From Ignavibacteria bacterium (lineage in GTDB: Bacteria; Bacteroidota; Ignavibacteria; Kapaibacteriales; Kapaibacteriaceae), in contig CP054181.1 in the NCBI GenBank assembly GCA_015709655.1, positions 981,262 through 1,045,261 on the forward strand: DNA of 64,000 bases. The letters run 5' to 3'. A model generated the notes under the pieces. That model saw only the letters and a list, made by a program, of their open reading frames with translations, did not search any database and was not told where the DNA came from. A program made the position numbers and the translations under genes. Below, piece by piece: positions 16,648 to 31,551 of this stretch (the first letter of the stretch is position 1; every line of letters starts with the position of its first letter).

Positions 16648-17472
16648 TTAGGCTGCATGGTTGTTGAATGCAGTGATTGGGGGTCGATAATTGTGCCTGC
16701 TGTGAGGTCGCTCGTTGTTGTACATGTGCAGCCACATGTTTGAGATCGTTTGCCCCTCGGCTAGTGACATGAAGATTTCTGCATTTAGCACCTCACGTCG
16801 GTAGGTTCCGACGAAGCTCTCTGCAAAGCCGTTCTGCCATGGCTTCCCGGGCTGAATGTATGCCAGCGTAACTTTGCGCCGTTGAGCCCATTGCTGCACC
16901 ACATACGCAATGAATTGTCCTCCGTTGTCGGAACGAATGTACTTCGGCATTCCATACCGAGCTACCTGCTCGTCAAGAACAGCCTCAACATCAGCGCCTT
17001 TGAATGACCGCCGCACGGTTATGCTGAGGCCATACGACGTGGCTTCGTCCTTGATCAGCAGTGCCATCATCTTCCGACCGGTCATCAAACGATCCTCAGC
17101 AAAGTCCATGCACCATACCTCGTGTGGCTGTATCGCCGTCGGATTGATCCGTACGCTGCGCCGGATCTTGCGTGAACGCTTACGCCACTGAGCCGCATGG
17201 CCACTTTGCCGGTAAACGCGGTGAACAGTGCACTCTGAGTAGTCATGCCCCTGCTCCCGCATCCAGCCGAACACCAATCGCTTGCCCCAGGCCGGGTGTT
17301 TCGCCACAACGTCATTGATGATCTTCTGTACTGGAGCATCCTTGGCTGGCTGGCGAGGCTTATACGTTACCATTGAACGTGAAACACCCATTAGAACACA
17401 CGCGCGGCGTTGATCCAGGCCTCGTCGACTGGCGTACTCCACTGCCTGAAGTTTCTGTGGGACGCCTACCAT
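16648..17472 (-). CDS. IS3-family transposase OrfB (DDE)
   Basis: A protein of 274 residues overlapping orfA by seven bases. It has an HTH_21 region near residues 45-100 (HPAWGKRLVFGWMREQGHDY) and an rve core with all three acidic residues (MDFAED, RSDNGGQF, NGFAESFVG). The gene looks intact. Group features resemble the IS407-type branch of IS3. Confidence 0.9.
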   Translation of the reverse strand: MVGVPQKLQAVEYASRRGLDQRRACVLMGVSRSMVTYKPRQPAKDAPVQKIINDVVAKHPAWGKRLVFGWMREQGHDYSECTVHRVYRQSGHAAQWRKRSRKIRRSVRINPTAIQPHEVWCMDFAEDRLMTGRKMMALLIKDEATSYGLSITVRRSFKGADVEAVLDEQVARYGMPKYIRSDNGGQFIAYVVQQWAQRRKVTLAYIQPGKPWQNGFAESFVGTYRREVLNAEIFMSLAEGQTISNMWLHMYNNERPHSRHNYRPPITAFNNHAA

Positions 17473-17729
17473 TTTTTTGCCGCAATCTCTTTCATCACTT
17501 CGATCTCAAGATCACGCTCGGCGACCAGCTTCTTCAGCCGGGCGTTCTCCTGCGTGATCCGCTTGAGCTCGGAGACCTGGCTCGGCTCCATGCTCCCGTA
17601 CTTCTTGCGCCATATGTAGATCGTGTGTGACGACACCTTGTACTTCTTCGATGTCGTTGATACGCCATGGGCGTGTGATGCGCGAACGATGCTAACGATC
17701 TGCTCCTCGCTATAATGGCTCTTCCTCAT
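17466..17729 (-). CDS. IS3-family transposase OrfA
   Basis: A protein of 87 residues with a helix-turn-helix (STTSKKYKVSSHTIYIWRKK) and a leucine-rich helix (LKRITQENARLKKLVAERDL). It acts with OrfB in cut-and-paste or copy-out transposition. Frame and overlap suggest the usual -1 frameshift to make an OrfAB fusion. Confidence 0.88.
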   Translation of the reverse strand: MRKSHYSEEQIVSIVRASHAHGVSTTSKKYKVSSHTIYIWRKKYGSMEPSQVSELKRITQENARLKKLVAERDLEIEVMKEIAAKKW

Positions 17730-17778: not shown

Positions 17779-17991
17779 TCACACCACTCCAGAACAATGC
17801 CCATATCTCAATAGAACTATCCTTTCACATTGTTTAACAATGTTTTGATAATCAGCTTCATTGCAATAATTGTTGCTGATATAAACTTCGTTTCCGTTGT
17901 CCCAAAAGAAGTCTGCAATGTCGTAAAGACATTCATCAGCTTCTTGTTCTTTATTTTCGATTACTAAATATTTCATTTTCAAATCATTCAT
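17779..17991 (-). pseudogene. Hypothetical cassette gene truncated by IS copy 2
   Basis: An ORF of 70 codons overlapping the stop of the DUF4405 gene (ATGA), so it was translated with that operon. Its last codon and stop (GTG TGA) come from the IS terminus, so the true C-terminus is lost. The remaining part is acidic with several cysteines (DECLYDIADFFWDNGNEVYI, KQCERIVLLRYGHCSG). I do not recognise a family. Confidence 0.6.
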
Positions 17992-18464
17992 TCCATAATC
18001 AAATCAATTACTTCCTCTGGGTCGCTATTATTGTTCAACCATATTTCTTTAATGGTTGTTGCTTTTTCAATCAAAATCCCTTTCTCTTTTAGTTTGGCAG
18101 ATGCCTTATCGTAATTGATGTCCAAGGCTCTGAAAGCATCGCCAACAGGAGCTTTTACAATTCTTTCCATCATTTGTAAATCAACGGGCGGATACATCCT
18201 TTCAGATACAATAAGTATTGCAGAAACAGTCACTACCCCGAATAAAGCAGGTAAAAAGACACCTTTTTTGAAATGGATTTTAAGGGCTTTCCAATTGAGA
18301 ATAATGTGAAAAATGGCGCACACAACAAAGAACAAACCGAGTATTTCGTGAACTACTTCTGTATAGCCGTCGAACAAATGGAAGAACATCAGCAGGCCCG
18401 AAATGGCGACCACAAGGAACACCAATGATATAAATGGGGTAACATATTTTCTATTCGGTTTCAT
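17988..18464 (-). CDS. DUF4405-like membrane protein
   Basis: A protein of about 158 residues (start at the second ATG of the frame, MKPNRKYVTPF). It has two N-terminal membrane segments with histidines in HEILGLFFVVCAIFHIILNW, a pattern of DUF4405 proteins related to cytochrome-b-like membrane subunits, then a third segment and a soluble C-terminal domain with repeated acidic residues. It follows a flavodoxin-fold oxidoreductase by ten bases, suggesting a small redox operon. Confidence 0.6.
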   Translation of the reverse strand: MKPNRKYVTPFISLVFLVVAISGLLMFFHLFDGYTEVVHEILGLFFVVCAIFHIILNWKALKIHFKKGVFLPALFGVVTVSAILIVSERMYPPVDLQMMERIVKAPVGDAFRALDINYDKASAKLKEKGILIEKATTIKEIWLNNNSDPEEVIDLIME

Positions 18465-18479
18465 AATCAAATAATTTAA

Positions 18480-19070
18480 TTAGTTGAAGTTTGATAATCT
18501 GTTTTCGAGATTAGTCAGCCATTTTACCCGCTTTTCGTGGCTTACTCTTTTTACTGATGTAAAACTTATCCAACTGACATTTTTATACCCCATTGTTTTA
18601 AATACACTCCGTATCATCACTTTGCGGATTAAGTTTCCAATCAACAGTGAATACATTATTGCGGGTTTGTTCATTGTAGTGATAACGGTTACGCTTTTCA
18701 AATTCTTTAATAGGGGCAACAGACCAAAACCTCTCGGATGATGGTCATATGCCAACCCCGGTGATAAAACTCTATCGATAAAACCTTTGGTTGTTGCGGG
18801 CATTATGTCCCACCAAATAGGGAAAATAAAAATCAGATGGTCTGCTTTTTTCAGCCGTTCGTGATATTCCATAACTTGTGGGTCAACAGCACGGTGTTCT
18901 ACAAATGCTTTAAGGTCAGCGGCAGACATTGCGGGATTGAAGCTGTCTCTGTCAAGATGTATCAAGTCCACTTCGTGTTTTGCTTTTTGAAGTCCTTTGG
19001 TTACTGCGTCTAAAAGAGCGTTGCAGTAGCTTCCTTCGTAAGGATGATTGAATACAATTACTGTTCTCAT
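18480..19070 (-). CDS. NAD(P)H-dependent oxidoreductase, flavodoxin-like fold
   Basis: A protein of about 196 residues using the ATG at 19070 (MRTVIVFNHPYEGSYCNALL). This beta-strand and loop with HPYEGS, the FPIWWDIMPATTKGFIDRV segment, and GLAYD mark the NQO1/MdaB-like flavoprotein family that reduces quinones or similar electrophiles with FMN or FAD. A longer frame to 19130 exists, but it lacks a good start context. It is downstream of a Crp/Fnr regulator on the same strand. Confidence 0.82.
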   Translation of the reverse strand: MRTVIVFNHPYEGSYCNALLDAVTKGLQKAKHEVDLIHLDRDSFNPAMSAADLKAFVEHRAVDPQVMEYHERLKKADHLIFIFPIWWDIMPATTKGFIDRVLSPGLAYDHHPRGFGLLPLLKNLKSVTVITTMNKPAIMYSLLIGNLIRKVMIRSVFKTMGYKNVSWISFTSVKRVSHEKRVKWLTNLENRLSNFN

Positions 19071-19143
19071 TTTTTTACTGTTTAATACAGCACAAAATTG
19101 AGAAGTTAGCGAGGAGTCGTACGATAACAATTGTTAATAAATA

Positions 19144-19665
19144 CTATCGCCTATTTCTAATCCTGCTAAGCGAAACAGAGGTAATGCCGAGATAAGAAGC
19201 AATATAATGTTGTGGTACACGCTGAACGATATGCGGGAATTGTTCAATCAATTCTTCGTATCGTTTTTGAGGATTGTTTTTAAGGTAGGAAAAAGCAAGT
19301 TGCTGTGTTTGGAAAAGCCGTCTGAATAAATGTTCTTCAAAGTCCTTTTTTAATTCCGGAGAATTTTCAATTACCTGTTGAAAATCCTTTTGGGAAATAG
19401 TCTGTAATATGCAGGACTCTATACTTTCGATACTGTAAAGACTCGGTTGTTTGGTTCTGAAACTTTCTATGGAAGAAACGCTGTCGCCCTCAAAGAAGAA
19501 TTGTGTAGTGGTTTCTTTCCCGTCATTATTTACCCAAGTACGCAAACAGTCTTTTTCGATGAAGAACATCGTTCTTGAAATCTTACCCTCTTCCAGCAAT
19601 ATTGTCTTGGCAGGAATTTCCTGTCGTTTAAAATATTGGCTGAATTTGTTCCATTTGCTTTTCAT
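19144..19665 (-). CDS. Crp/Fnr-family transcriptional regulator
   Basis: A protein of 173 residues with an N-terminal cyclic-nucleotide-binding-like beta roll (TILLEEGKISRTMFFIEKDC, FFFEGDSVSSIESF) and a C-terminal HTH (VPQHYIASYLGITSVSLSRI). It belongs to the Bacteroidota type that often controls a neighbouring oxidoreductase. It opens the last, truncated cassette and probably regulates the flavoprotein and DUF4405 genes. No Fe-S cysteine motif is present. Confidence 0.83.
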   Translation of the reverse strand: MKSKWNKFSQYFKRQEIPAKTILLEEGKISRTMFFIEKDCLRTWVNNDGKETTTQFFFEGDSVSSIESFRTKQPSLYSIESIESCILQTISQKDFQQVIENSPELKKDFEEHLFRRLFQTQQLAFSYLKNNPQKRYEELIEQFPHIVQRVPQHYIASYLGITSVSLSRIRNRR

Positions 19666-19710
19666 TTTTTAGTCGTCTGTTTGTTTTATGCACGGTCGTC
19701 ATAGGGTTGC

Positions 19711-19842
19711 CACCAACGGTTTCGGGCTTTGCGTTCGGGCGGGTTTCGGAGCACAAAACTGTCAATACACCACAAAAGTTGATGCGAGGTAGAATGTTCA
19801 ATTAACCACGTCACCCGCCATTGAGCCAAACGCCTGTTACCA
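19711..19842 (-). other. attC-like site of cassette 7 (SRPBCC)
   Basis: An imperfect palindrome of 132 bp between 7-mer cores. The gene-proximal core, read on plus, is GTTACCACCA at 19836; it repeats the upstream junction of the same cassette (minus-strand GTTACCACCA at 20818). The outer core is GTTGGTG on the minus strand at 19717. The inner stem pairs GGCGGGT with ACCCGCC. Confidence 0.8.
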
Positions 19843-19846
19843 CCAG

Positions 19847-20800
19847 TTATTCTTTCGTTTCGCATCTGTTTTCAATTACGTTTAGGAGTCTGTCTTGAAA
19901 GTCTATTAGGATTATATCGCCCCAAAATTTACCATAAAAATTGATTGTTGAAGTCAACTGATAACTTGAAGAAAGTGTCAATTTTACTTGTCCGTTTTTT
20001 AGTTCGGTAAGTTCGTATGTTGCGTCAACAAAATTGAAATAGTTTCCATTCAAAACGTGTTGGTCGAATACTTTTTGTCTAACCGTTGAAGGGTCAATTT
20101 TTATGTCGAAGGAAGCCTTCTTGTTCTCTTCGTATTCCGTTATTGTTTCAATGAACATTAAACCACCTTCAAAATTTCCTATTCTTTGTCCACCAATTTC
20201 TTTCTTGTCGACAGTTGCACTTATTGGTCGGGGAATTCCGATTGAATTGAAAAATCCTGAATTGTATTCTTTCAGGTCAATTGTCTGAACTTCTACAATA
20301 TTATTCCAAATTTTTTCTGGTGTTGCGTCTATAATAACTTCACTTTTTACATTGTAAATGTCAGAAGGGCTTTTTATGTATTCTTCGATTGGTGCAAAGA
20401 GAAAAGGTAGTAAAACCAATGTCAGAAGTTTCCCTTTACTTTTTTGTCTGTTAATCTGAACAATTCTATAAATCAACGCTCCAATTGTTCCTAAAATAAA
20501 AAATGGTGCTGCAAGAACCAATAAGCAAATGAAGTCTTCAATACCAAATAAGAACATTGTCAAAAAGAAAGTCAAGACTGTCAGCCAAGGAATAAAAATA
20601 ATGTTCTTGTAAGATTTGAGTTTGTCATTGTCAGCAAACATTAAGGGAATAATACCCAAGATTGTCGGAATGATAAATAAATATGTTACCGAAGCCAAAG
20701 TTGCTTTTTGTCCGAATACCAACCTTGTCACAAGTCCGTATGCGATACCAAGTGCAATCCCGATAATTAGTAGTCCGTATTTTTGTTTTAGTCGTGTCAT
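19847..20800 (-). CDS. Cassette 7: membrane protein with C-terminal SRPBCC (START-like) domain
   Basis: A protein of 317 residues. Four hydrophobic segments fill residues ~9-140, followed by a soluble domain that begins VKSEVIIDATPEKIWNNIVE and continues through IETITEYEENKKASFDIKID, typical of SRPBCC/polyketide-cyclase-like lipid-binding folds. The ATG lies 17 bases inside the cassette and the stop ends five bases from the attC-like core, so almost all the cassette is coding. The biological role is unknown; a lipid or small hydrophobic ligand is likely from the fold. Confidence 0.7.
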   Translation of the reverse strand: MTRLKQKYGLLIIGIALGIAYGLVTRLVFGQKATLASVTYLFIIPTILGIIPLMFADNDKLKSYKNIIFIPWLTVLTFFLTMFLFGIEDFICLLVLAAPFFILGTIGALIYRIVQINRQKSKGKLLTLVLLPFLFAPIEEYIKSPSDIYNVKSEVIIDATPEKIWNNIVEVQTIDLKEYNSGFFNSIGIPRPISATVDKKEIGGQRIGNFEGGLMFIETITEYEENKKASFDIKIDPSTVRQKVFDQHVLNGNYFNFVDATYELTELKNGQVKLTLSSSYQLTSTINFYGKFWGDIILIDFQDRLLNVIENRCETKE

Positions 20801-20811
20801 TCTATAATTGG

Positions 20812-20943
20812 TGGTAACGTTCCGCAGCTACCCGAAGGTGGCGATTTCGGAGCACTTCACTGTCAACCAAGCAGAAACTTTGATTGGAACACAAAGCTTG
20901 ATTTAACCACTGAACCGCCACTTTTGGGTAGCTGCTGTTACCG
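20812..20943 (-). other. attC-like site of cassette 6 (AlbA_2)
   Basis: A site of 132 bp between cores. The outer arms pair CGCAGCTACCC (plus, 20821) with GGGTAGCTGC (20926), then GGTGGCG with CGCCAC. Internal mismatches sit where one arm has GAAG and the other, in reverse complement, AAAA. The gene-side core GTTACCGGCA at 20937 matches the start of cassette 6 at 22359 on the minus strand. Confidence 0.85.
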
Positions 20944-20948
20944 GCAGT

Positions 20949-22331
20949 TTATTTTTTTCTCCATGTGGTTCCACGACCTTGTGTTCCGGGTGTTTGCTCT
21001 ATTAGTCCTTTGTCTCTGAGTGCGTAAAATATTTGTTTCATAGCGTTTTCTGATCCAACATTTGCCAATCCACGAGCTGTCCTGTTGTTAATGGTTGCAT
21101 TTGTATTCAGGTAGGTCATGATAACTTCTTCAGGTGAGGCCAATGATTCGTGCTTTATTAAAACCATTACTGAGTTTTCTCTCTCGATAATTTCTGGTTC
21201 CTTTAGTTTCATTTTTTTCATAGCATCGAAAGCTGTATTGAGACCTTCGCCAACGTCCTGATTTGGTGGGTTCGGAAATTTATTAATCAATCTAACCAAA
21301 GACCCATTACGCGCAAACTGCTCTTTTAAAATGTTACCTGTAGTAACGTGTCCAGGCAATTTGCCAGGACTTTCAATTTCCACCCTATTGTCGAATATCC
21401 GTATATGTATGTCAGAGGCTAAACTATAGTCACGATGCAGCACAGCATTAGTAATGATCTCGTGCAATGTTTCGTTTGGATAGTGCATTGTTGTCTCTTC
21501 ACCATCAGCTGAATAAATCTTTATTGCTTGAATTATTTCAGTAACTTTTGAAACCGCTTCATAAATTTGTTTATATGCACATCCCTCAATTGAAATCGGT
21601 GTAAATGCTAATGTTTCTCGTGTTCCCTCTGCATCTTTCGTTGTATATCGGTAGATCTTTATTCCACTTTGTTTCGGTAAAGCAGCCTGGGGGTTGTCAG
21701 CAAATAAGAGTACTGAGGCAACTGTCGGAAGATTATTAGAAATTAGAAGTTGCTTTTTTAACCACGGAATAGGTTCCGTTGTTGGTATTACTTCTATCAT
21801 GAACTCATAGATCACAAGTGAATCTGCTACAAATTCAATAGGTACATTTAATGTATTGCTTTCAAATGATGAAACTCCTTTGTCAAGCTGAAGCCGTTTT
21901 AATTTTTCATCATCGTCTACTGGTAAACTTTGAGCACCTCTTCTGATATATGGGACACCATCTGAAGCTTTTACAATTTGTTTGGTTTTTAGAATTGAGA
22001 TTTGCAAAACAAGACCGAGTTCTTCATCCATTTGCAAAAAGGTATAATTGAAGTCTGTGCCAAGAGGGAAAAGTTGTTCAAATATTTGAAGATGACCGTT
22101 AGCAGCTTCAACATCTGGAAATCCTCTCCACTGTCTTTGCTTCACACCTAAAACTTCAGTCTCATCAATTCCAATATAGATTTCTCCACCTACCGTATTT
22201 GCAAATGCTGAAATAGTTTTTGTCAGCTTTGCGGGCTTAATGTCAATTGCCTTTAAGTCTCTAAAGTGATCCTCTTCAATATCAAGAATGATATTTTTCT
22301 GATTTTCTGTTATTGATTTGGTTTCTATCAT
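20949..22331 (-). CDS. Cassette 6: AlbA_2/Schlafen-type DNA-binding ATPase-like protein
   Basis: A protein of 460 residues. The N-terminal AlbA_2 (AAA_4) domain shows KTISAFANTVGGEIYIGIDE and the strand ending in YIRRGAQSLP. The middle has the conserved ETLHEIITNAVLHRDYS motif of the RecG-like C-terminal ATPase/HATPase_c_4 part, followed by LPGHVTTGNILKEQFARNGS. The C-terminus is a winged helix. These proteins are frequent in bacterial accessory regions and are sometimes linked to phage defence or regulation; the exact action is unknown. Confidence 0.78.
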   Translation of the reverse strand: MIETKSITENQKNIILDIEEDHFRDLKAIDIKPAKLTKTISAFANTVGGEIYIGIDETEVLGVKQRQWRGFPDVEAANGHLQIFEQLFPLGTDFNYTFLQMDEELGLVLQISILKTKQIVKASDGVPYIRRGAQSLPVDDDEKLKRLQLDKGVSSFESNTLNVPIEFVADSLVIYEFMIEVIPTTEPIPWLKKQLLISNNLPTVASVLLFADNPQAALPKQSGIKIYRYTTKDAEGTRETLAFTPISIEGCAYKQIYEAVSKVTEIIQAIKIYSADGEETTMHYPNETLHEIITNAVLHRDYSLASDIHIRIFDNRVEIESPGKLPGHVTTGNILKEQFARNGSLVRLINKFPNPPNQDVGEGLNTAFDAMKKMKLKEPEIIERENSVMVLIKHESLASPEEVIMTYLNTNATINNRTARGLANVGSENAMKQIFYALRDKGLIEQTPGTQGRGTTWRKK

Positions 22332-22352
22332 AATTGTCAGTCTTTAAATTGC

Positions 22353-22484
22353 CGGTAACGGTTCGCGGCTTGGCGAAGGGCGGGATTTTTACCACCAAGT
22401 TTCATACGAAGCACAAATGCTGAACCTTGCACAAATATTTCCACGAAGCACGTCAGCCCGCCTTTTGCCAAACCGCTGTTAGTG
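22353..22484 (-). other. attC-like site of cassette 5 (HNH)
   Basis: A site of 132 bp between cores. Plus arms GCGGCTTGGCGAAGGGCGGG (22365) and CCCGCCTTTTGCCAAACCGC (22457) pair with G-T wobbles at the GAAG/TTTT step and a C-A mismatch. The gene-side core GTTAGTGGC at 22478 repeats the upstream junction of this cassette at 23225 (minus). Confidence 0.85.
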
Positions 22485-22505
22485 GCTGCCGTTCTTTCTT
22501 TCGCA

Positions 22506-23195
22506 TCAACTTTGTTTGTTGTCATACTCTAAATTACCCTTTGCAAGATTATGTGTTTCACAAAGCACTTGAAGATTTTCTAAAACTGTCTCGCCACCTT
22601 TTGACCAAGGATGAACGTGGTCAAAGTGAATGTTGTCTCCTGTCACAGTAACACCACAAAGTCGGCATTTATTTCCGTCACGCATTAATACCTGAACTTT
22701 GAGCCGTTCACTTGGAAATCTTTTTGTCTTATGTTTGAAAACAATTTCAGTTTGAGTAAAGGGTTCTTCAACTTCAATAGTCATTTCGTCCTCGTGATTG
22801 TCGGAATTGATGAATTGAACAAATGCTTCAAGTGCTTTTCTCCAGGTACCAAATTTTGCTGTGTATTGGTGCGTAGAATATTTGGAAACGGAACCTTTCA
22901 GGTCTCTAAACACAGGTTGTCGTCCAATGCTTAACCATACTTGCTCCATATTCTCAAATAACTCCTTCTCAGAAACATCTCGCTGTAAAACTAAATTTAA
23001 TCCAGCTTTTTCGATTGCCTTATTCCAACTTCCGAATCGGACGCCAATTGTGCCAGAAGTAAATTTGCCACCATTGCTGTCGTACTGTCTTGACGAAATT
23101 TTATTTAGTCCCAGTTTTTCAGCTACTCGCTTGACGTCCTCAAGTAACTCGTTGTCTGGGATATTTCTGTTAAATTCTTTAAGTTTATACTTCAT
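22506..23195 (-). CDS. Cassette 5: HNH endonuclease with two HNH-associated repeats
   Basis: A protein of about 229 residues. I use ATG 23195 because the in-frame extension to 23234 runs across the cassette junction. Two helical repeats of the type found with homing nucleases are present (TSGTIGVRFGSWNKAIEKAG and THQYTAKFGTWRKALEAF). The C-terminal HNH domain has CRLCG, FDHVHPWSKGG and LQVLCETHNLAKGN, with zinc-type cysteines and the catalytic His. It should cut DNA; whether for defence or mobility is open. Confidence 0.85.
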   Translation of the reverse strand: MKYKLKEFNRNIPDNELLEDVKRVAEKLGLNKISSRQYDSNGGKFTSGTIGVRFGSWNKAIEKAGLNLVLQRDVSEKELFENMEQVWLSIGRQPVFRDLKGSVSKYSTHQYTAKFGTWRKALEAFVQFINSDNHEDEMTIEVEEPFTQTEIVFKHKTKRFPSERLKVQVLMRDGNKCRLCGVTVTGDNIHFDHVHPWSKGGETVLENLQVLCETHNLAKGNLEYDNKQS

Positions 23196-23218
23196 ATTCT
23201 GTTGTCTGTCACGGTTGC

Positions 23219-23350
23219 CACTAACGGTTGGCAAATTGGCGATGGAGCCGCTTTTAGCACAAATGTTGAATAGAATTACTACTCTTTAACCTTGCACAAA
23301 AGCTCAATAGAAGCACTTCACCGGCTCTATTGCCAATTTGTTTGTTGTGG
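23219..23350 (-). other. attC-like site of cassette 4 (DUF262 pseudogene)
   Basis: A site of 132 bp between cores. Arms: CAAATTGGCGATGGAGCCG (plus, 23232) and CGGCTCTATTGCCAATTTG (23322), almost perfectly complementary. The gene-side core GTTGTGGGAT at 23344 equals the upstream junction of this cassette at 25159 on the minus strand. Confidence 0.82.
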
Positions 23351-23359
23351 GATGTGGAG

Positions 23360-25096
23360 TTATTTAATCAGTTCATTTTCATTTAGATATTCTATAAAAC
23401 TCGTTATAATATTATTTTTTCTGTATTCAATGTTTTTTTCTGAAAAATCAGGTTCAACTGTTAATTCTAAAAGTTCAGCTATTACTGTTCCGTGTTTTTC
23501 TTGCCCTTTATCATTGACAAAACCTTTCTTATATTTTACTTTGTCAATAAATCGGTAATCTGAAGCACGAATGTTTATTTTATCTTCTAATAATGATTTA
23601 TTTCCAATGGATTCCAAGTTTTTGATATTTTCTAAAGTCCTATCGTTTTCTTGCCGTTTCTTTGGAAAGATGTGTTCAATTTGAAAAGACATATTCAACT
23701 CGGGCAAAGTTTGTTCTCTTTTATAAAATGCCCACCAAGCCAACATAGATTTGGTAATAGGTCTTCCGTTTTTGAATTCAAAGTTTTGAATTGCTGTTTT
23801 GAGTGTGTTTTCCTCAAATTTAAAATCTGAAAAATGTATTTCTCTATCATTTACCACATTAATCATTTCAGCATAAACAGGAGTTCTCAAAGCATTTACG
23901 CCAGGGTTTGTAAAAGAATAAGCCCAATTAAATGCAGTTATTTTAGTAAGAAAAACTTCTAAATTTGTTTGATTTAATTGACAATTTTCGTCTTTGTTCT
24001 GGAGAAAATATACAGACAAAAAGTAATTCCACATACCATTCGGAGCATAGTTTAAGACAAATAATTTTTTCAAATTTATTTCTGAAAATCTTTCATTGTT
24101 TTGTTCATAAATGTCAGCCCAAAAGTTGGCGAGTATTTTTAAATTTGGAAGTGTCTCATCTTTTTTGAGTATTGCATATTTTCCTCTTTCATAAAATTTT
24201 CTCAAAGCCTCTGTTGTACTTGATTTTATTCCTTGTTTAGCGCGGATGAAGTACATATATCTTGTAAATAACTCATCCATTGGAGTTCCATTTATTGGAT
24301 TGAAAATTTTATTACAAATATCTTCTAGTTCTTTCCATTCATCAATAAATGACTCTTTTTCATTTTTACTGCTATAATGCTTATAGAATTGGGCTTTGAA
24401 AATATCTGCGTCAGATAGAGGCTACCCTCTGTCATTTAATGTAGAGAAAATTCTAAGAGCTGTATCTTGCGATTCTGCTTCAATTGGCAATAAAATACAG
24501 TTTCCTAATATTCTAGCTGGCAAATACGCAAAGTAGGAGGGAAATTCACTTAGGAATCCATCAATTTTATCTTGAAAAAAACGATAATTTTTTGCATAGT
24601 TACTTTTCTGTTCTTTGCTAACAACCCCAGTTTTTAAAATGTTTAGAAATTCATCCTTGTCATTGTCCGTCGCTACTTCGGAATCAATTTTTAGAACATT
24701 TAGGTCAGCTTCTCCAAACTCATTTGTTTTCCATAGACATTGAGAAATTCTTTTTCTCGTGCTTTTGGAATTATCATCTTGCATCTTACCGAACTTTTCA
24801 TAAAATGCACGTAATAATAGCATTAAAGTCGTTAATCTTTGTTGTCCATCAATAACTTCTTTCTTATGGTTTTCATTTTCAAAAGTAACGATTGAACCCA
24901 AAAAGTATTCCTCATTACTATCAAAATTATCGCAGTTATTATCAGGGAACGCAAAAGAAAAAATATCATCCCATAATGTTTGACATTGTGGTTCTTCCCA
25001 AGCATAAGGTCTTTGATAATCAGGAATTAAAAAATCCGATTTTTTGTCGGAAAAAAGTAACATTATTGTTTTTTGGTCAACATTCAGTTTAGACAT
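23360..25096 (-). pseudogene. Cassette 4: DUF262/DUF1524 (GmrSD-like) gene with an in-frame TAG
   Basis: The frame reads through 224 codons to NDRG, meets TAG at 24422-24424, and resumes in the same frame with PLSDADIFKAQFYKHY. The intact homologue in cassette 2 has Leu at this position. The N-terminal DUF262 part shows FLIPDYQRPYAWEE and DGQQRLTTLMLLLRAFY; the C-terminal DUF1524 His-Me finger nuclease shows IEHIFPKKRQEND and GNKSLLEDKIN. GmrSD-like enzymes cut modified phage DNA. A single substitution explains the break; readthrough cannot be excluded but no evidence supports it. Confidence 0.82.
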
Positions 25097-25152
25097 ACTT
25101 TTCTAAATTATTAATTTGGTTTTTTAATCTGTGGTAGTTTCGTTTCCATATC

Positions 25153-25245
25153 CCACAACGGGCCGGCGATAAAACAAGTTGCCGAAGGCAATTTGCCCGA
25201 AGGGCGTAGTGACCGAAGGGAACGAAGTTTTATTGCCTGTTGGGC
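25153..25245 (-). other. attC-like site of cassette 3 (Sul-like), short form
   Basis: A site of 93 bp between cores, the shortest of the array. Plus arms GGCGATAAAAC (25164) and GTTTTATTGCC (25227) pair. An extra small hairpin GTTGCCGAAGGCAA lies in the loop. The gene-side core GTTGGGCGC at 25239 repeats the cassette 3 junction at 26458 (minus), and the match extends to 24 positions with two mismatches. Confidence 0.78.
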
Positions 25246-25480
25246 GCTGTTAAATGGCGCGTAACCACAGCGTTTCTTTTCCCGGCCGATTCTCTTCTCT
25301 ATTTGCATTGAGCGGCACTCATTAAGGGGAGTTGGTTGATTCTCTTTATTTTCAATTACCCCAATCTATTCCATCAAAACCAAGAGACCTTATTTTTCGC
25401 CTTTAAGAACTTAGTACTCCCAAGTTATAGATCAGCATAATAAAACCGTAATCCATCTTGAAATGGTTGTCAATTACAAA
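25246..25480. other. Non-coding 3' tail of the Sul-like cassette
   Basis: Unlike the other cassettes, whose genes end within about 30 bases of the attC-like core, this one has ~235 bp between the stop and the site. The sequence is AT-rich. I see no open frame, RNA motif or clear terminator in it. Confidence 0.5.
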
Positions 25481-26299
25481 TTAGCAATTTAACATCCCAA
25501 GCACTTTTAATGCGTCACTTAAAGCTCTTACATCATGCGTACGGATGTAATCCACACCCATATAGCTTATATAAATTTCAGCAGCCAGGGTCGCTGGCGT
25601 TCGCTCGTTGACTCCTCGCCCAACAATAGTTCCTAAAAAAGATTTCCGAGAAACCGAAACAAGAATTGGTAATTTAAAGTATTCTTTTACTCGAAAAATA
25701 TTTTTCAAAACATATATTGACGTTTCTGGGTTAGAGCCTAAGAAGAAACCCATCCCTGGGTCTAAAATAATTCTTTCGGATGAAACGCCTGAATTTTGAA
25801 GTGAATTTATTCGTTGCGAAAAGAAATCAATTATTCCATCAAATATATTTTCGGGAACAGTTTCGATTACTTGGGCTTTCCCAAGCCGCTGTATGGAATG
25901 CATAACAATGAGTTTGCAATTAGATTCTGCCAATTCAGGATATAATTCTGCATATGGAAACCCTTGAATGTCATTTAAATAGTGGACATTCTTTTTTAAA
26001 AAATATTTTTGAACTTCGGGTTTGAATGAATCAACAGAAACTGAAATATTTTGAGAATGCAATTTGTCGATGACATCATTTAAACGGATTATTTCCTCAT
26101 GAGGCTTTACTTCTTTTGATTCAGGATTACTGGAAGCGGCTCCTACATCAATTATGTCAGCGCCATCCTTAACAAGTAGAAGTGATTTCTCTATAGCTTT
26201 ATCATAATTTAAATAAAGGCCGCCATCTGAAAAGCTGTCTTCAGTAATGTTTACTACACCTAGTATTGTAGGCTTTTTTAATTTCATATGTTTTTTCAC
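25481..26299 (-). CDS. Cassette 3: Sul-type dihydropteroate synthase
   Basis: A protein of 272 residues (or 268 from the second ATG, MKLKKP). DHPS signatures: ILGVVNITEDSFSDGG, DIIDVGAASSNPES, VSVDSFKPEVQ, LILDPGMG-type loop and VSRKSFLG. Several blocks match plasmid Sul1/Sul2 rather than ordinary FolP as I recall them: LNDIQGFP followed by LYPELAES, LIVMHSIQR, and DPGMGFFLG followed by PETS; E. coli FolP has DPGFGFGKN at the last site. Sul enzymes make dihydropteroate while discriminating against sulfonamides. Position in a mobile cassette fits a resistance-type role, but insensitivity is inferred, not shown. Confidence 0.85.
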   Translation of the reverse strand: MKKHMKLKKPTILGVVNITEDSFSDGGLYLNYDKAIEKSLLLVKDGADIIDVGAASSNPESKEVKPHEEIIRLNDVIDKLHSQNISVSVDSFKPEVQKYFLKKNVHYLNDIQGFPYAELYPELAESNCKLIVMHSIQRLGKAQVIETVPENIFDGIIDFFSQRINSLQNSGVSSERIILDPGMGFFLGSNPETSIYVLKNIFRVKEYFKLPILVSVSRKSFLGTIVGRGVNERTPATLAAEIYISYMGVDYIRTHDVRALSDALKVLGMLNC

Positions 26300-26451
26300 T
26301 TTAATTGCCTTTTCTATTCTGCTCTGTCTGTGGTTTTATTTCATATCTTTTTAATTTAATTCGCGGATTATTGTTTCCCTAAACTGTGCCGCTCGTCTTT
26401 TGTTTTTATATTTCTCGGCCGGGCTATTTATTTAACGCGCCATTTAATTGC

Positions 26452-26583
26452 GCCCAACGGTTTGCGGCTTGGCGAAGGTGGCGATTTTTACCACAAATGT
26501 TGATGCGGAGAACCAAACTTTGATTAACCACAAATGTGTCTGCGGAGCACTGAACCGCCACTTTTGCCAAACCGCTGTTAGCG
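26452..26583 (-). other. attC-like site of cassette 2 (DUF262)
   Basis: A site of 132 bp between cores. Plus arms GCGGCTTGGCGAAGGTGGCG (26464) and CGCCACTTTTGCCAAACCGC (26556) are complementary apart from G-T and C-A steps. The gene-side core GTTAGCGGC at 26577 repeats the cassette 2 junction at 28405 (minus). The outer core GTTGGGC fits the classical integron consensus GTTRRRY. Confidence 0.87.
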
Positions 26584-26593
26584 GCTGTGGTTA

Positions 26594-28336
26594 TTATTGC
26601 TTTAATAAGTTTTTCTGTTTTAAAAAGTCAATAAATTCATTCACTATTTTTTCACTTCTGTCAATTATGTCTTGCTCGTTAAAGTCTGTTTTGGTGTCTG
26701 CCAAATTCACTAATTCAGAAATAATTGAACCTGCTTTATGTTGTCCTTTGTCGTTAGTGAAACCTTTGTAATACTTGGTTTTATCACTAAACCTGTAATC
26801 AGATGCTCTTATGTTTATTTTGTCTTCTAGTAAAGATTTGTTACCAAGAACTTCTAAGTTTTTTGTGTTGGAAAGCGACTTGTCATTTTCTTGTCTTTTT
26901 CGTGCAAAAATATGTTCAATGTCAAAATTCGTAGTGAGTGTTGGGATTTCTTGATTGTCAACTTTAAATGCCCACCAAGTTAACATTGACCTTGTAATTG
27001 GTCTTCCATTTTTAAACTCAAAATTATTGATTGCTGTTCGCAATGTGTTTTCGTCAAATTTATGTTCTTCAAAGTTGACTGTTTTGTCTGTTACAATATT
27101 TATCATCTCTGCATAAACAGGCGTTCTTAAAGCGTTAACACCAGGATTAGTGAATGCATAAGCCCAAACAAATGCGACTGTTTTATTTAAAAACTCGTCT
27201 AATTTTTGTTCCTCTAATTGTTCGTTACCGTTTTTGTTTTGTAGAAAATATACGGACAAAAAATACGTCCACATACCATTTGGTGCGGAATTAAGGATAA
27301 ATAATTTTCTTAGAATATTAGCCGAAAATCTGTCTGTATTTTGATTGTAAACGTCATTCCAAAAATCAACAAGTATTTTGAGATTTGATAAAGTCTCATC
27401 TTGTTTGAGAATCGAGTATTTGCCTTTTTCGTAAAACTTGCGTAAGGCTTCTGTTGTGCTTGATTTTATACCTTGTTTTGCACGGACAAAATACATATAT
27501 CTTGTAAAAAGTTCGTCCATTGGTGTTCCATTCAATGGTTTGAAAATTCTAGCAGTAATTTCTTCAAGCTCTTTCCATTGCTCAATGAATTTGTCTTTTT
27601 GGTTTTTTGTAGTGTAATGCTTGTAAAATTGTGCTTTAAAAATGTCGGCATCTGACAATGGTAGCCCTCTATCGTTCAATGTTGAAAATATTCTTAATGC
27701 TGTGTCCTGAGACTCTGCGTCAATTGGTAATAGAATACAGTTACCTAAAATTCTTGCAGGCAAGTATGCAAAGTATGAAGGGTATTCGCTTAAAAAGTTG
27801 TCTATTTTTTCTTGGAAAAAGCGATAGTTCTTGGCATAGTTGCTTTTTTGGTCTTTATTTACAATACCAGTTTTAAGTATTTCCAAAAACTCATCTTTGT
27901 CATTGTCAGTTGCTACCTCAGAGTCAATTTTGAGTATGTTTAGATTTGGTTGTCCAAATTCATTTGTTTTCCATAAACATTGAGCAATTCTTTCCCGAGT
28001 GCTTTTTGAGTTCTCGTCTTGCATATTGCCAAACTTTGCATAGAAAGCTCGTAATAACAACATTAAAGTGGTTAACCGTTGCTGTCCGTCAATTACTTCC
28101 TTTTTATTGTTGTCATTTTCAAAAGTTACTATTGAACCCAAAAAGTATTCTTCATTGCTGTCAAATTTGTCGCTGTTGTTGTCTGGAAATGCGAAAGTAA
28201 AAATGTCGTCCCAAAGGGTTTGGCATTGTCCTTCTTCCCAAGCGTAAGGTCTTTGATAGTCTGGGATAAGAAAGTCAGATTTTTTATCTGAGAAAAGTAA
28301 CATTATTGTTTTCTGGTCAACATTTAGTTTTGACAT
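26594..28336 (-). CDS. Cassette 2: DUF262/DUF1524 protein, GmrSD-like defence nuclease
   Basis: A protein of 580 residues, intact. DUF262 (residues ~10-240) has FLIPDYQRPYAWEE, the nucleotide-linked DGQQRLTTLM motif, and LGNCILLPI. The C-terminal DUF1524 domain (from ~residue 450) has DIEHIFARKRQEND and LEVLGNKSLLEDKINIRASD, the His-Me finger pattern. Related GmrSD/BrxU systems use NTP to restrict phage DNA carrying modified cytosines. It is about 88% identical to the cassette 4 product over the first 224 residues and less so afterwards. Stop and attC-like core are ~11 bases apart. Confidence 0.88.
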   Translation of the reverse strand: MSKLNVDQKTIMLLFSDKKSDFLIPDYQRPYAWEEGQCQTLWDDIFTFAFPDNNSDKFDSNEEYFLGSIVTFENDNNKKEVIDGQQRLTTLMLLLRAFYAKFGNMQDENSKSTRERIAQCLWKTNEFGQPNLNILKIDSEVATDNDKDEFLEILKTGIVNKDQKSNYAKNYRFFQEKIDNFLSEYPSYFAYLPARILGNCILLPIDAESQDTALRIFSTLNDRGLPLSDADIFKAQFYKHYTTKNQKDKFIEQWKELEEITARIFKPLNGTPMDELFTRYMYFVRAKQGIKSSTTEALRKFYEKGKYSILKQDETLSNLKILVDFWNDVYNQNTDRFSANILRKLFILNSAPNGMWTYFLSVYFLQNKNGNEQLEEQKLDEFLNKTVAFVWAYAFTNPGVNALRTPVYAEMINIVTDKTVNFEEHKFDENTLRTAINNFEFKNGRPITRSMLTWWAFKVDNQEIPTLTTNFDIEHIFARKRQENDKSLSNTKNLEVLGNKSLLEDKINIRASDYRFSDKTKYYKGFTNDKGQHKAGSIISELVNLADTKTDFNEQDIIDRSEKIVNEFIDFLKQKNLLKQ

Positions 28337-28398
28337 ATTGATGTTTATTTTTTTTGTTAATCGTTCTTTTGTCGGTGGTGCGGTCGTCCTACCATTGC

Positions 28399-28595
28399 CG
28401 CTAACGTTTTGGGTATTGCCGAAGGCGGGGAAATCGAAGCTTTAAGTTTCGATTTTGCACCGAGGCGAGCCAAAACGAATTTTTATGAGTTAAATTTAAA
28501 AATAAAAAACGAATAAAATTCGTTTTTGGCGGAATAGTAGGGTAGAACTTTAAATTTAGCACTTTAGCCCCGCTTTTGGCAATACCTTGTTAGCG
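28399..28595 (-). other. attC-like site of cassette 1 (lnu-like), long form
   Basis: A site of 197 bp between cores. Plus arms GGGTATTGCCGAAGGCGGGG (28411) and CCCCGCTTTTGGCAATACC (28568) pair. An inner AT-rich extension contains a second inverted repeat, AAAACGAATTTTTATGAGTT against AATAAAATTCGTTTTTGGC. The gene-side core GTTAGCGGTA at 28589 repeats the attI-like junction at 29527 (minus). Confidence 0.82.
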
Positions 28596-29372
28596 GTAGT
28601 TTTTTCTTATTTCGTGTAGGATTTCGTTCAGTTTTGTTTCAATATTTAGTTCGTCAAATAGTTTCTCCGATAAATTTAATGAGTTTTCAAAAGCTAAAAT
28701 TATGTTTTTAGGATTTAAATCCGATGTTATTGTTTTATACGCAGAATACCAAGTCATATCAATATCCTTTTCAAGACTTTTAGTCGGACTTTCCCAATGT
28801 TGGGTTTTGTTTATTCTTGCTCTAATAAGCCAGAGCAAATATTTCTGAACGTTTGATAAACTATGATGAGCGTGAGCAAATTCCTCTCTCTTAATTAAGT
28901 TACTTGTTGTCAGTACAACATTCAGTAATGATTGACTTAACCACAAGATGTTTTCATTTGTTATTCTTTCGGGCGATTTCGTTTTGATTTGATTAAGCGT
29001 TTTCGTTAAATGTCCGTCTTTGTCGATTAGGTTCATTTGGTCAAAATCGCTAAATGTAACTATTCCGTCCCAAGATTTGATAATTTCAATTTCCTCTGTT
29101 TTTAAAAAATGAAATTCTCCTCTGACCAAATTCTCAAAAATAGCAACTTCGGTTCCATATTCATTTATAAAATATAAAGCCACAGGATGAATTTGATTTA
29201 CCCATTTTTCTGCTGAGAAATTTTCTTTATTTTTTACAAAGATGTAAAATTCGATGTCAGAATATTTGTCTCCTTCGTTTTTGGTAAATGAACCATACAT
29301 AAAAACAGCGGAAATATTTTCGTCTTGTTGAGCTATAGATTTTGTTTTGTTAATCATTTGTAACTGTGTCAT
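28590..29372 (-). CDS. Cassette 1: Lnu(F)-like lincosamide nucleotidyltransferase family protein
   Basis: A protein of 260 residues. The N-terminal nucleotidyltransferase motif is MYGSFTKNEGDKYSDIEFYI, with GS followed by D-x-E, as in Pol-beta-fold antibiotic nucleotidyltransferases. The following ALYFINEYGTEVAIFENLVR and GEFHFL closely follow the pattern I recall for Lnu(F)/Lnu(G), which add a nucleotide to lincomycin and clindamycin. A helical C-terminal domain completes it (HWESPTKSLEKDID). The known lnu(F) also travels as a class 1 integron cassette. It is the first cassette after the recombinase, and its stop codon lies inside the attC-like core. Confidence 0.8.
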   Translation of the reverse strand: MTQLQMINKTKSIAQQDENISAVFMYGSFTKNEGDKYSDIEFYIFVKNKENFSAEKWVNQIHPVALYFINEYGTEVAIFENLVRGEFHFLKTEEIEIIKSWDGIVTFSDFDQMNLIDKDGHLTKTLNQIKTKSPERITNENILWLSQSLLNVVLTTSNLIKREEFAHAHHSLSNVQKYLLWLIRARINKTQHWESPTKSLEKDIDMTWYSAYKTITSDLNPKNIILAFENSLNLSEKLFDELNIETKLNEILHEIRKNYR

Positions 29373-29520
29373 TTTTTCTAATTTTTAAAAGTTAATAATA
29401 GAAAATTCCATTACTTTTTGAAAGCAATGAAAAGGTTTAAGTTTATATATTTTGGACAGTTACTTATAGCTTCATCGGATTATATTTTTTTATGTTCAAC
29501 ATTCTGTTTGGTAAAATTAC

Positions 29521-29565
29521 CGCTAACTCACTTATATATGCAATAATACTGCATAAATATACCTT
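29521..29565 (-). other. attI-like primary recombination site
   Basis: On the minus strand this reads an inverted repeat (TATATTTATGCA, 7-bp spacer, TGCATATATAAG; 29561-29531) followed by GAGTTAGCGG, where GTTAGCGG (29527) is the start of cassette 1. The arms match at nine of twelve positions, the size and spacing usual for a tyrosine recombinase core. There is no attC-like palindrome here, so this is where a recombinase-proximal attI is expected. Confidence 0.6.
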
Positions 29566-29593
29566 TTTTTGTTGGCTTGGCGTAGTTTGGTTG

Positions 29594-30628
29594 TTACAAA
29601 TCATCAAAGGGACTTTTTATATTTTGCAAGTTTCTAGTACTTACGTGGGTGTAAATTTCAGTGGTTTTACTGCTGCTATGGCCTAGCAATTCTTGAATGT
29701 AACGCATGTCAGTGCCATTTTCCAGTAAGTGCGTGGCGTAGCTGTGTCGCAGCCAATGTAAACTTACCGGTTTTGTAATTTTTGCTTTTTGCAATGCCTG
29801 TTTCAATACGCTTTGCAGGCTTTCGGCAGTGTATTGTTTGCCTTTTTGTTGCCCTTCAAACAACCAAACCGTTGGTTTATACGCTTTGTAATATTGACGC
29901 AATAATGCGACTACTTTTTCAGAAATTGGAACTATACGGTCTTTCCTGCCTTTGGCTTGCTTTATTAGCAATATCCCTCGTTTGCTGTCAATGTCTGCTG
30001 GTTTTAAATTCAATAATTCGCTTCTTCGCAAACCACAGGCGTACGTCAAACTCAACATTACTCTATGTTTTATGTTCCCATGTGCTTCTAATATGGCTCT
30101 AATTTCTTCCTTGCTTAAAACATTGGGTAATATCTTGGGTTTCTTCGGACGGTGTATTTGTTCAATTTTCAACCTTCGGTCTTGCACAGTTAGGAAAAAT
30201 AATTTTACGGCATTAACCATTTGATTTTGGTACGAAGCCGAAAGTTGTTTTTTCAAAATATACTCGTTGTTGAACATAATAATATCTTCGTTTCCAATTT
30301 CGCTCAAAGCTTTTTTAGAATAGAATCGCAGGAAAACCCGTATTGCCTCGGAATATGTTTTTATCGTGTTTTCACTGTATCTCTTGCTACGCAACCATTT
30401 CACGAATTTTGCAATTTGGTGTTGTACTTCGACAGACAGATATTTCTCGGGATTCATTTTGAATTTTCGGCGATACGCTTCTGTATCAGGCAAATGCCAT
30501 GTTTTTAGCGTTGCACTCCACTGAGCACCATCCAATTTCTTGAAGCGCTCAATCAATTCCGCTTTCTTTTCAAATGAAACGGCGATGCGTTTTTGCCCTT
30601 TGTGTATGATAAATTTGGTTGTGACCAT
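29594..30628 (-). CDS. Tyrosine recombinase at the head of the cassette array (non-IntI)
   Basis: A protein of 344 residues from ATG 30628; a longer frame to 30769 lacks support. Residues ~1-60 form an extra N-terminal domain (SFEKKAELIERFKKLDGAQW, LKTWHLPD) with a HARP-like look. Next is a SAM-like core-binding domain (WLRSKRYSENTIKTYSEAIR) and a catalytic domain with R in CGLRRSELLNL, K in KGRKDR, HWLRHS, LGHSS and the tyrosine in IYTHV. The C-terminus IKSPFDDL recalls the SPLDAL end of IntI. The stretch between PISEKVVALL and LHWLRH is ~40 residues shorter than in IntI1 and lacks the IntI-specific insertion. It is transcribed toward the cassettes. Confidence 0.88.
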   Translation of the reverse strand: MVTTKFIIHKGQKRIAVSFEKKAELIERFKKLDGAQWSATLKTWHLPDTEAYRRKFKMNPEKYLSVEVQHQIAKFVKWLRSKRYSENTIKTYSEAIRVFLRFYSKKALSEIGNEDIIMFNNEYILKKQLSASYQNQMVNAVKLFFLTVQDRRLKIEQIHRPKKPKILPNVLSKEEIRAILEAHGNIKHRVMLSLTYACGLRRSELLNLKPADIDSKRGILLIKQAKGRKDRIVPISEKVVALLRQYYKAYKPTVWLFEGQQKGKQYTAESLQSVLKQALQKAKITKPVSLHWLRHSYATHLLENGTDMRYIQELLGHSSSKTTEIYTHVSTRNLQNIKSPFDDL

Positions 30629-30640
30629 AGTAAATCTCAG

Positions 30641-30682
30641 GCAAACGGTTTGTGACATTGCGAGGGACTGACCTGTTAGCAC
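30641..30682 (-). other. Short attC-like remnant at the host boundary
   Basis: On the minus strand, GTGCTAACAGG (30682) and AAACCGTTTGCC (30651) have the same outer shapes as the array cores (CTAACAG and AACCGTT) but are only 42 bp apart with no clear stem. It lies directly upstream of the recombinase, where AT-rich DNA gives way to host-like DNA. It may be a decayed site or chance. Confidence 0.3.
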
Positions 30683-31551
30683 TATTCCTAAGTCAAAACA
30701 TGAGTAAATACGTGACACAGTATTTCGAAACATTTTGTCCGCTCTGCTGCCACCCACACTCCTGATCACGGTATAAGCTATTACATTCCCGCAATTGGCG
30801 TGGTTGGCCCTGCGTCAGCTGACAAATCGACAAGAGGGGGAAAGTAGTATAATCTGTTGTGGAGTGGATACGCTAAGTACGGTTTCCGGACGTGTATTTC
30901 TGAAGGCAGTTGCGCAGTAGCGGATTGTCCAGCAGCTGATATAAGTATATGGTCCGGAAAGAATTCAAGACATCCGGTCACAATAGGAGATCTGTTTAGC
31001 CCGGTAGTTGCCAGGCCGGTGAATGTGCGCTCGAGCAGTTTCCTCGGGTCTGGTCGGTCATGGGCTTCCATGCCCTTGAATCCCGACCTCCCAAAATAGG
31101 AGACGTTCCCTGCCTTTAAATGCCCAGAGGGATATCTGCACGAATACCGGTACGTACAACACCATAAGAAACTGCAACTTAGGAAGGTGGCAGCTCACCA
31201 GGATAGTGGGTCGGCTTCCGGAACACCTAATGTGCAGTAGTATTATTTACCTGCCTATTACTGCATGAATCTGGTGCGCTATACAGAACCGGAGTTTCTC
31301 TGGTAGCTGAGCGCTGGCCGTTGGTATCTGATACGAGCGCGAGTTCTACTCAATACCGTGTGACAACAGCCGTTTTTGCACGACCAACCATTAGACGATG
31401 CCGTACACCACCGTCTGTACAATAGCCGAACGTTTATTACAAACACTATCGTACCACAATAAATGCAACGGCATGTGCAGAGTTGTTGGTTCCTGTACGT
31501 CCACTTTTTCTGCAAACTGGGTAAACAAGACGCAGGTATTGGGTACCGCTG
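30683..31551. other. Gene-free stretch between the array and the metallo-beta-lactamase
   Basis: About 870 bp of host-like composition. Open frames of up to ~95 codons exist on both strands, but none has a recognisable motif or translation context. I see no RNA gene. It may contain decayed gene pieces left by insertion events. Confidence 0.5.

Follow-up and report, generated by a model that had tools for sequence, protein, structure and literature searches.

rAID systems of Bacteroidales have been described, in the published passages available, as a tyrosine recombinase with co-oriented orphan immunity genes and conserved intergenic motifs. For integrons, the excerpted text of one survey gives Salinibacter ruber as the source of its complete integron within Bacteroidetes proper, in addition to those in Chlorobi and Ignavibacteriae (the literature on which we draw, likewise in excerpt, is PMC13148043, PMC9024848, PMC7530245, PMC12247911, PMC11194056, PMC7722449, PMC3518468 and PMC5331189). 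We analyzed a stretch of 64,000 nucleotides (nt) from an Ignavibacteria bacterium (GenBank assembly GCA_015709655.1, contig CP054181.1, positions 981,262 to 1,045,261 of the forward strand), which we call the window. It very probably contains the cassette array of a Bacteroidota integron-like system that is run by a XerA-like recombinase without the IntI insert. The closest described relative of this system is rAID. In the window, too, a tyrosine recombinase is followed by co-oriented genes with intergenic motifs. However, the genes are not the orphan type VI secretion system (T6SS) immunity genes of rAID, but encode Lnu(H), GmrSD, dihydropteroate synthase (DHPS), HNH and AlbA_2 proteins and a 317-aa protein without a match. 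The first-pass annotation, made from the window's letters, had supposed that such an array was undescribed. We found no description of this class among the papers listed by our searches of the open-licence PMC literature, although rAID is a partial precedent.

The array shares with IntI integrons its head-to-tail single-gene cassettes, the G|TT crossover, an attI-like site beside the recombinase, an imperfect palindromic recombination site in which an unpaired spacer adjoins the core, and the occurrence of long arrays. It differs from them, including class 1 integrons and Vibrio superintegrons, in that the recombinase has no IntI insert, the core is not GTTRRRY, the recombinase gene is co-directional with the cassettes and has the attI-like site behind its 3′ end, and the arms matching within a cassette are 6-9 nt and variable. 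The system works like an integron, but fails two tests that define IntI integrons, having neither the IntI-specific additional domain nor the attC core RYYYAAC...GTTRRRY. By their description, pdif modules are bounded by 28-bp XerC/XerD sites, whereas the window has long hairpin sites whose core is G|TT.

All features of the array lie on the minus strand. A tyrosine recombinase open reading frame (ORF; 29594-30628, 344 aa, ATG at 30628) is followed head to tail by eight units, of which seven are complete, with a single gene each, and the last is truncated. The G of the GTT cores is at 29527, 28405, 26458, 25159, 23225, 22359, 20818 and 19717. Each complete unit starts just after G|TT and ends with an attC-like hairpin that opens with AAC and closes at the next GTT. 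The seven hairpins are S1 (28403-28591), S2 (26456-26579), S3 (25157-25241), S4 (23223-23346), S5 (22357-22480), S6 (20816-20939) and S7 (19715-19838), where the higher coordinate is the first A of AAC. The complete cassettes range from 866 to 1947 nt, and GC content drops from about 50% outside to 31-39% within the array (1-kb windows, 18001-30000). These coordinates bear out the first-pass annotation, which had reported eight palindrome-ended units, seven of them complete and the last truncated with several genes, all in one direction with the recombinase at the upstream end. An array of head-to-tail, mostly single-gene cassettes with variable content, each ending in a foldable imperfect palindrome, is what is expected of an integron.

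Evidence for such a system comes from the relation between cassette starts and hairpins. In the window, the first 8 bases after GTT are complementary to the 8 bases before the cassette's own AAC at 46 of 56 positions, as opposed to 26 of 56 when the start of the next cassette is compared instead. Among the 5040 permutations of starts and hairpins, the true pairing is the only one that reaches 46. Thus, the earlier observation that each unit start matches its own palindrome and not its neighbour's holds. A consensus helix built from six of the seven sites (S3 was left out) has 94.2% of its cells paired and double changes in 12 of its 20 pairs; none of 500 shuffles came as high. The site model that we call R1 was built from the same six sites. 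S1, S2 and S4 to S7 are supported by R1 and by AAC..GTT anchoring, and the divergent S3, which R1 misses, by anchoring. The AAC..GTT length is 124 nt in five of the seven hairpins, the exceptions being S1 (189 nt) and S3 (85 nt).

The same relation extends to 52 related loci (introduced below). Counted with the window and with one minus-strand and two upstream sites excluded, 144 of 181 cassettes agree with their own hairpin at 6 or all 7 of the 7 bases compared. The mean match is 5.78 of 7, while 1000 shuffles had a mean of 2.87 and a highest value of 3.15. In only 16 of 185 cases does the hairpin base, in its genomic form, match the cassette that follows it. This own-hairpin match and neighbour mismatch is predicted by the insertion of circles closed at G|TT. 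In a probable Riemerella anatipestifer chromosome, the rule held in 27 of 28 cassettes tested. The expected AAC is present in 193 of 199 sites and the expected GTT in 189, and the core reads GTTRRRY in only 7 of 181 cassettes. On a Parabacteroides plasmid (L112, 8960-14600), taken as rAID-like from its annotated immunity genes, the unit start pairs with its own hairpin in five of six units, as judged by eye; its hairpins are short (about 45 nt) and missed by R1, and its recombinase is 45% identical to the window enzyme.

The attC sites of IntI integrons are variable in length. The hairpins found here are nearly constant (median 124, interquartile range 123-125 nt), a length that R1 itself favours. 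Of 185 sites, 112 fold better as the bottom strand and 62 as the top strand. The covariation of the hairpins, together with the slightly better folding of the bottom strand, makes a folded strand the likely substrate, probably the bottom one as in integrons. In the mechanism we propose, the XerA-like recombinase would capture, excise and reorder single-gene cassettes at the G|TT core. Given that the first arm of the hairpin (...AAC) is complementary to the cassette's first bases, a complete palindrome would form only once the cassette is excised as a circle.

The recombinase profile scores were obtained from a 391-aa frame that includes 47 upstream codons. The enzyme scores 227.7 bits with NF040815 (XerA/‘integron integrase’), exceeding the cut-off of 220, but only 208.9 bits with the IntI model TIGR02249, whose cut-off is 265, and the latter match is split into two stretches. 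When aligned to IntI1, the window enzyme and eight homologues all lack the IntI insert (9/9). Vibrio cholerae IntI4 also matches in two pieces, with its residues 183-245 (63 residues) facing 21 residues of the query (236-256). Therefore, the enzyme is Xer-like and lacks an IntI insertion, as had been proposed. The residues R, K, HxxR, H and Y, which we take to have their usual catalytic roles, are retained in the alignment with IntI1. The closest solved folds are XerA (4a8e, 5hxy), followed by IntI4, and the C-terminal end (SPxD) resembles IntI. In contrast to XerA, the window enzyme is linked to cassette arrays, has an extra N-terminal domain of about 60 residues and, judged from its context, is no chromosome-dimer resolvase. 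This domain is typical of close relatives but not universal: 10 of 20 matches in more distant genomes start at residue 34 or later. Its predicted outline is strand-strand-helix-strand-strand-helix, based on an AlphaFold model (mean pLDDT 83.3, pTM 0.51) that was used solely for this outline. Immediately ahead of the recombinase ATG, on the border of the low-GC region, there is a half-site resembling a cassette end (CAATGTCACAAACCG|TTTGCC, 30640-30685).

The attI-like site in the window (29525-29590) is an inverted repeat ending TATAAGTGAG|TT, with its G at 29527. A loose rule places a site of this kind behind the recombinase both in the window and in 77 of the 79 related loci with enough sequence, although some of these 78 picks are wrong, e.g., that in L028 (distance 63). 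A stricter rule gave a site in 44 of 53 sources. For the sites of the loose rule, an inverted repeat precedes the consensus TATAaacaAG|TT, and the distance from stop codon to G is 100-103 nt in 43 of the 78 sites and 66 nt in the window. As in integrons, the putative attI site adjoins the integrase gene, yet it lies behind the 3′ end of a co-directional gene. Incoming cassettes would enter at its G|TT, directly behind the recombinase gene. Within each of two groups of loci (L028, L031, L038 and L054; L073 and L084), the recombinase end and attI-like site are 95-99% identical along 300 nt, and homology is lost 2-22 nt after the attI G.

The related loci are the best 80 of one scan and have recombinases that are 59-83% identical to the window enzyme. 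Most are titled as Bacteroidota or one of its genera, and L014 as Ignavibacteria; two titled otherwise (L019, L021) are metagenome-assembled genomes and probably mis-binned. The first-pass annotation had suggested searching related genomes with a covariance model; R1, with its six window sites, gave 209 matches in the 80 loci at E≤1 and 196 at E≤0.01. Of the 196, 194 are downstream of the recombinase (369 kb) and two upstream (705 kb), and 193 of the downstream matches are on the recombinase strand. A downstream site is present in 53 of the 80 loci, on the recombinase strand in 52, and 25 of the 27 loci without one have less than 2 kb of downstream DNA. Within 2 kb of the recombinase, the available sequence breaks off on the downstream side in 37 of 80 loci but on the upstream side in only 5 of 80, a bias that repeats would produce. 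A Chryseobacterium plasmid recombinase has four further R1 sites behind it on the same strand.

We also surveyed 198 genomes of the window genome's phylum (recombinase at E≤1e-90, sites at E≤1e-4). Sites occur in 102 and the recombinase in 19, all 19 of which have sites. In three single whole genomes, R1 matched 45, 53 and 28 times. By contrast, there was no match in the 1.59-Mb Sinorhizobium pSymA, an alphaproteobacterial megaplasmid used as a control, nor in a class 1 integron piece.

The window cassettes carry varied genes. Cassette 1 (28405-29526) contains lnu(H), a predicted lincosamide-resistance gene (ORF 28590-29372; NF040958, 567.2 bits, cut-off 540). Cassette 2 (26458-28404) contains a GmrSD/DUF262-type nuclease gene (26594-28336; PF03235, PF07510), and cassette 4 (23225-25158) a second GmrSD-type gene that is broken by an in-frame TAG near 24422 into ORFs 24422-25096 and 23360-24280. 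These two GmrSD-type genes (26594-28336 and 23360-25096) are 74% identical along a 300-nt stretch, and their cassette ends differ. Cassette 3 (25159-26457) encodes a Sul-like DHPS (25481-26299) that scores 351.5 bits with NF000296 (Sul3), below the cut-off of 475. Cassette 5 (22359-23224) encodes an HNH nuclease with homing-endonuclease repeats (about 22506-23195; PF18780, PF01844), cassette 6 (20818-22358) an AlbA_2/HATPase protein (20949-22331; PF04326, PF13749), and cassette 7 (19717-20817) the 317-aa protein (19847-20800), which had no match in a Pfam scan. The truncated last unit (17784-19716) contains genes for a Crp-like regulator (19144-19665) and a flavodoxin-fold oxidoreductase (18480-19130), both assigned by Pfam scan, and a 160-aa ORF (17988-18470). 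It is interrupted by a region (16648-17729) that we presume, from its sequence, to be transposase-like.

Two more arrays lie on the single 2.84-Mb contig of the host genome, at 547-576 kb and 802-820 kb. The former (545500-580000; L102, L103) consists of site-bounded units with no recombinase nearby, and the latter (801500-821499; L101) adjoins a recombinase remnant. The order in L101 is tet(X), an OXA-347-like gene, aadS and a type I restriction system, and heavy-metal-type genes are present too; we scored the tet(X) and aadS kin with NCBIfam models, while the other names are partly our presumption from the sequences.

Across loci, cassette content is highly diverse. A sample of 174 cassettes of 250-4000 nt, including a few copies from plasmids, has a median length of 887 nt. 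The longest ORF runs along the array in 150 cassettes and opposite to it in 17, and seven have no ORF of 60 aa. The resulting 167 proteins form 147 clusters, 135 of them singletons, and a Pfam scan of 139 cluster proteins matched 90 families. The cargo includes resistance genes, defence-like genes and many genes of no assigned function; we drew no defence count, as the PADLOC scan gives many models per single protein. Two findings that would have spoken against the integron-like reading, a gene order fixed among relatives and palindromes unlinked to cassette boundaries, are contradicted by this diversity and by the position of the palindromes at the boundaries, and the reading survives.

Comparison of copies suggests movement at the predicted ends. 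The lnu(H) cassette occurs in four contexts whose shared 5′ end lies exactly at TT: after the attI-like site in the window, after foreign hairpins in two Empedobacter plasmids, and after unrelated sequence in a third. Its first 300 nt are 91-96% identical in three copies, while the 60 nt before it are 17-53% identical; the fourth copy (L098) is about 64% identical in an ungapped count spoiled by an indel and 87-92% identical with gaps. One lnu(H) cassette has a compensatory change in its start and its own distant arm (TTGGCGGT with ACCGCCAAC, versus TTAGCGGT with ACCGCTAAC). The tet(X) cassette has identical first 24 bases in six contexts with differing flanks, and its hairpin is followed by four different sequences, each beginning at TT; the base preceding the core is A instead of G in one of the six (L006). 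The L006 array, from Paenimyroides aquimaris, contains the window DHPS cassette at 98.9% identity along 1332 nt, as well as Tet(X), AadS and Erm(F) units, each above its NCBIfam cut-off, with erm(F) inverted. The Sul-like DHPS gene itself (25481-26299 in the window, 15604-16422 in L006) is nearly identical in the two genera. It is closest to Sul3 and may be an unrecognised mobile Sul-like gene. Units of this kind, with exact ends, are thus present in more than one genus and on plasmids, and genome comparison and one published uptake both indicate mobile units cut at G|TT. Cassette units of this type are found for lnu(H), tet(X), aadS, OXA-347-like, erm(F), aph(3′)-IVb and Sul-like DHPS genes.

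The lnu(H) copies keep their own ends while their hairpin interiors differ. The interior of S1 (28403-28591) recurs behind a DUF262 gene on a Myroides plasmid (L096, 4001-4190). Such exchange of interiors between genes, with breaks at AAC and GTT, is seen in window S1, L096, L094 and L095.

Several published puzzles involve units of this type. In R. anatipestifer, transformants were reported to acquire aph(3′)-IVb together with 27 and 140 nt of flank in a homology-independent manner. The available text of that paper remarks on an attC-like fold and on similarities to lnu(H) and blaRATA, but does not settle the mechanism. Our predicted cassette has flanks of 28 and 139 nt, i.e., the same total of 167 nt. 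The prediction is from plasmid pRCAD0416RA-1, where an APH(3′) gene (262 aa) lies in an array of seven site-bounded units; we take it as aph(3′)-IVb, as it has the same length and the strain is named in that paper. Its companions are lnu(I), relE/HTH, blaOXA, tet(X), estT and a phosphotransferase gene. The probable R. anatipestifer genome has the relE/HTH pair at 100% identity, followed by a 250-aa gene that is not evidently the cdf named in the paper. This genome has 50 R1 matches, 48 of them in one same-strand array that spans the contig ends; some are counted twice, as the opening 10 kb apparently recur at the end of the contig.

The ISCR2-xerD-tet(X3)-res module of Acinetobacter plasmids is described, in the passages available, as moved by ISCR2. 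The gene before tet(X3), called xerD or tpnF, encodes a protein that is 51% identical to the window enzyme along 226 aa and, judging from sequence, is a member of its family. tet(X3) starts at the same core boundary as the tet(X) cassette, G|TTATGTGCC. However, the hairpin after tet(X3) is truncated, and R1 finds no full site there. On a Klebsiella plasmid (L113, 6001-7763), a recombinase of this family, 49% identical, precedes blaVEB-3, which starts at G|TTAGCGGTAATTT and nearly agrees with the lnu(H) cassette in its first bases. For the veb1 site, poor function with IntI1 is reported in excerpted text, which would fit a foreign origin.

Some hypotheses could be set aside directly. An ordinary IntI integron is ruled out by the absent insert and the core, and an isolated curiosity by the 80 related loci, which include resistance-gene arrays, and by the long array in the probable Riemerella. 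Another explanation is that the units are cassettes moved in trans by host XerC/XerD or a distant tyrosine recombinase, with the XerA-like neighbour being a passenger or inserting only at its own attI. This would account for sites in 83 of 179 genomes without a close recombinase and for the probable Riemerella array, which has no adjacent recombinase although the species took up such a unit in the transformations described in the available text. We consider it unlikely, because the attI-like site lies behind the recombinase in nearly all loci (77/79, plus the window), same-strand sites follow the recombinase in 52 of 80 loci (most others being short of downstream DNA), and 19 of 19 recombinase-bearing genomes have sites. 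The system might also be a diverged integron of the true IntI family that lost the insert secondarily, given the TIGR02249 match of 208.9 bits, the same site topology and G|TT core, and the IntI-like SPxD end. That origin seems quite unlikely, since the profile score passes the NF040815 cut-off and not that of TIGR02249, the enzyme is as similar to the host genome's own Xer protein as to IntI1 (30% identity each), the insert is missing in 9 of 9 proteins, the core is not GTTRRRY in 174 of 181 cassettes, and recombinase and array share a direction. Finally, the hairpins could be mobile repeats or terminators among ordinary genes, in an island moved by homologous recombination between hairpins. 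The near-constant length of 124 nt (IQR 123-125) and the hairpin interior common to unrelated genes would suit this idea, but it leaves unexplained the cassette-specific match that is mostly absent for the neighbour, the ends of homology at G|TT and the published homology-independent uptake. We regard it as highly improbable, and the own-palindrome rule likewise sets aside terminators or random repeats.

Other observations weigh against an integron-like system run by the XerA-like recombinase. That the window enzyme performs the recombination is something we infer from sequence. The sites in the 83 genomes without a close recombinase would need a more distant enzyme or past loss. In the probable R. 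anatipestifer genome, the recombinase homologue (43% identical) lies about 0.5 Mb from the array, and another Xer-type enzyme could act on recombinase-less arrays. Two loci (L032, L056) have no R1 site despite more than 2 kb of downstream DNA. R1 also finds no downstream site at four plasmid recombinases of 42-49% identity, where the sole strong match (L111) is upstream and on the other strand; short hairpins of another length are visible at two of these four. The own-palindrome test is failed by 37 of 181 cassettes, many of which probably span a missed site, and in plasmid L094 lnu(H) is preceded by non-hairpin sequence. Ordinary exchange at G|TT does not explain the exchange of hairpin interiors between genes; exchange at the AAC side plus G|TT would do so. 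In the recombinase tree, only one of 22 branches is starred and branches are long, so no placement was drawn.

Taken together, we think it fairly probable that Bacteroidota have an integron class of their own, in which a XerA-like integrase reads G|TT hairpins without the IntI clamp. By the same joint reading, this class is the native cassette system that gave mobile elements their tet(X), erm(F), aadS, OXA-347-like, lnu(H), aph(3′)-IVb and perhaps blaVEB genes. The ‘xerD’ beside tet(X3) would then be the integrase of this class and rAID a branch of it that carries immunity genes, Riemerella would have a super-array, and hairpin interiors could be exchanged independently of the gene.

Integron finders target IntI and IntI-type attC sites. 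A second cassette system with sites in 102 of 198 sampled genomes of the phylum would amount to a large reservoir of genes that has gone unseen. It offers a direct and testable account of the way in which tet(X) and other resistance genes of Bacteroidota gained mobility, and of the unexplained homology-independent uptake reported in Riemerella. The system also bears on the use of hairpins by a tyrosine recombinase that lacks the IntI insert, for which the N-terminal domain is a candidate replacement. If true, the exchange of hairpin interiors would give plain genes a way to turn into cassettes. The system likely shuffles genes between bacteria as a separate kind of integron.

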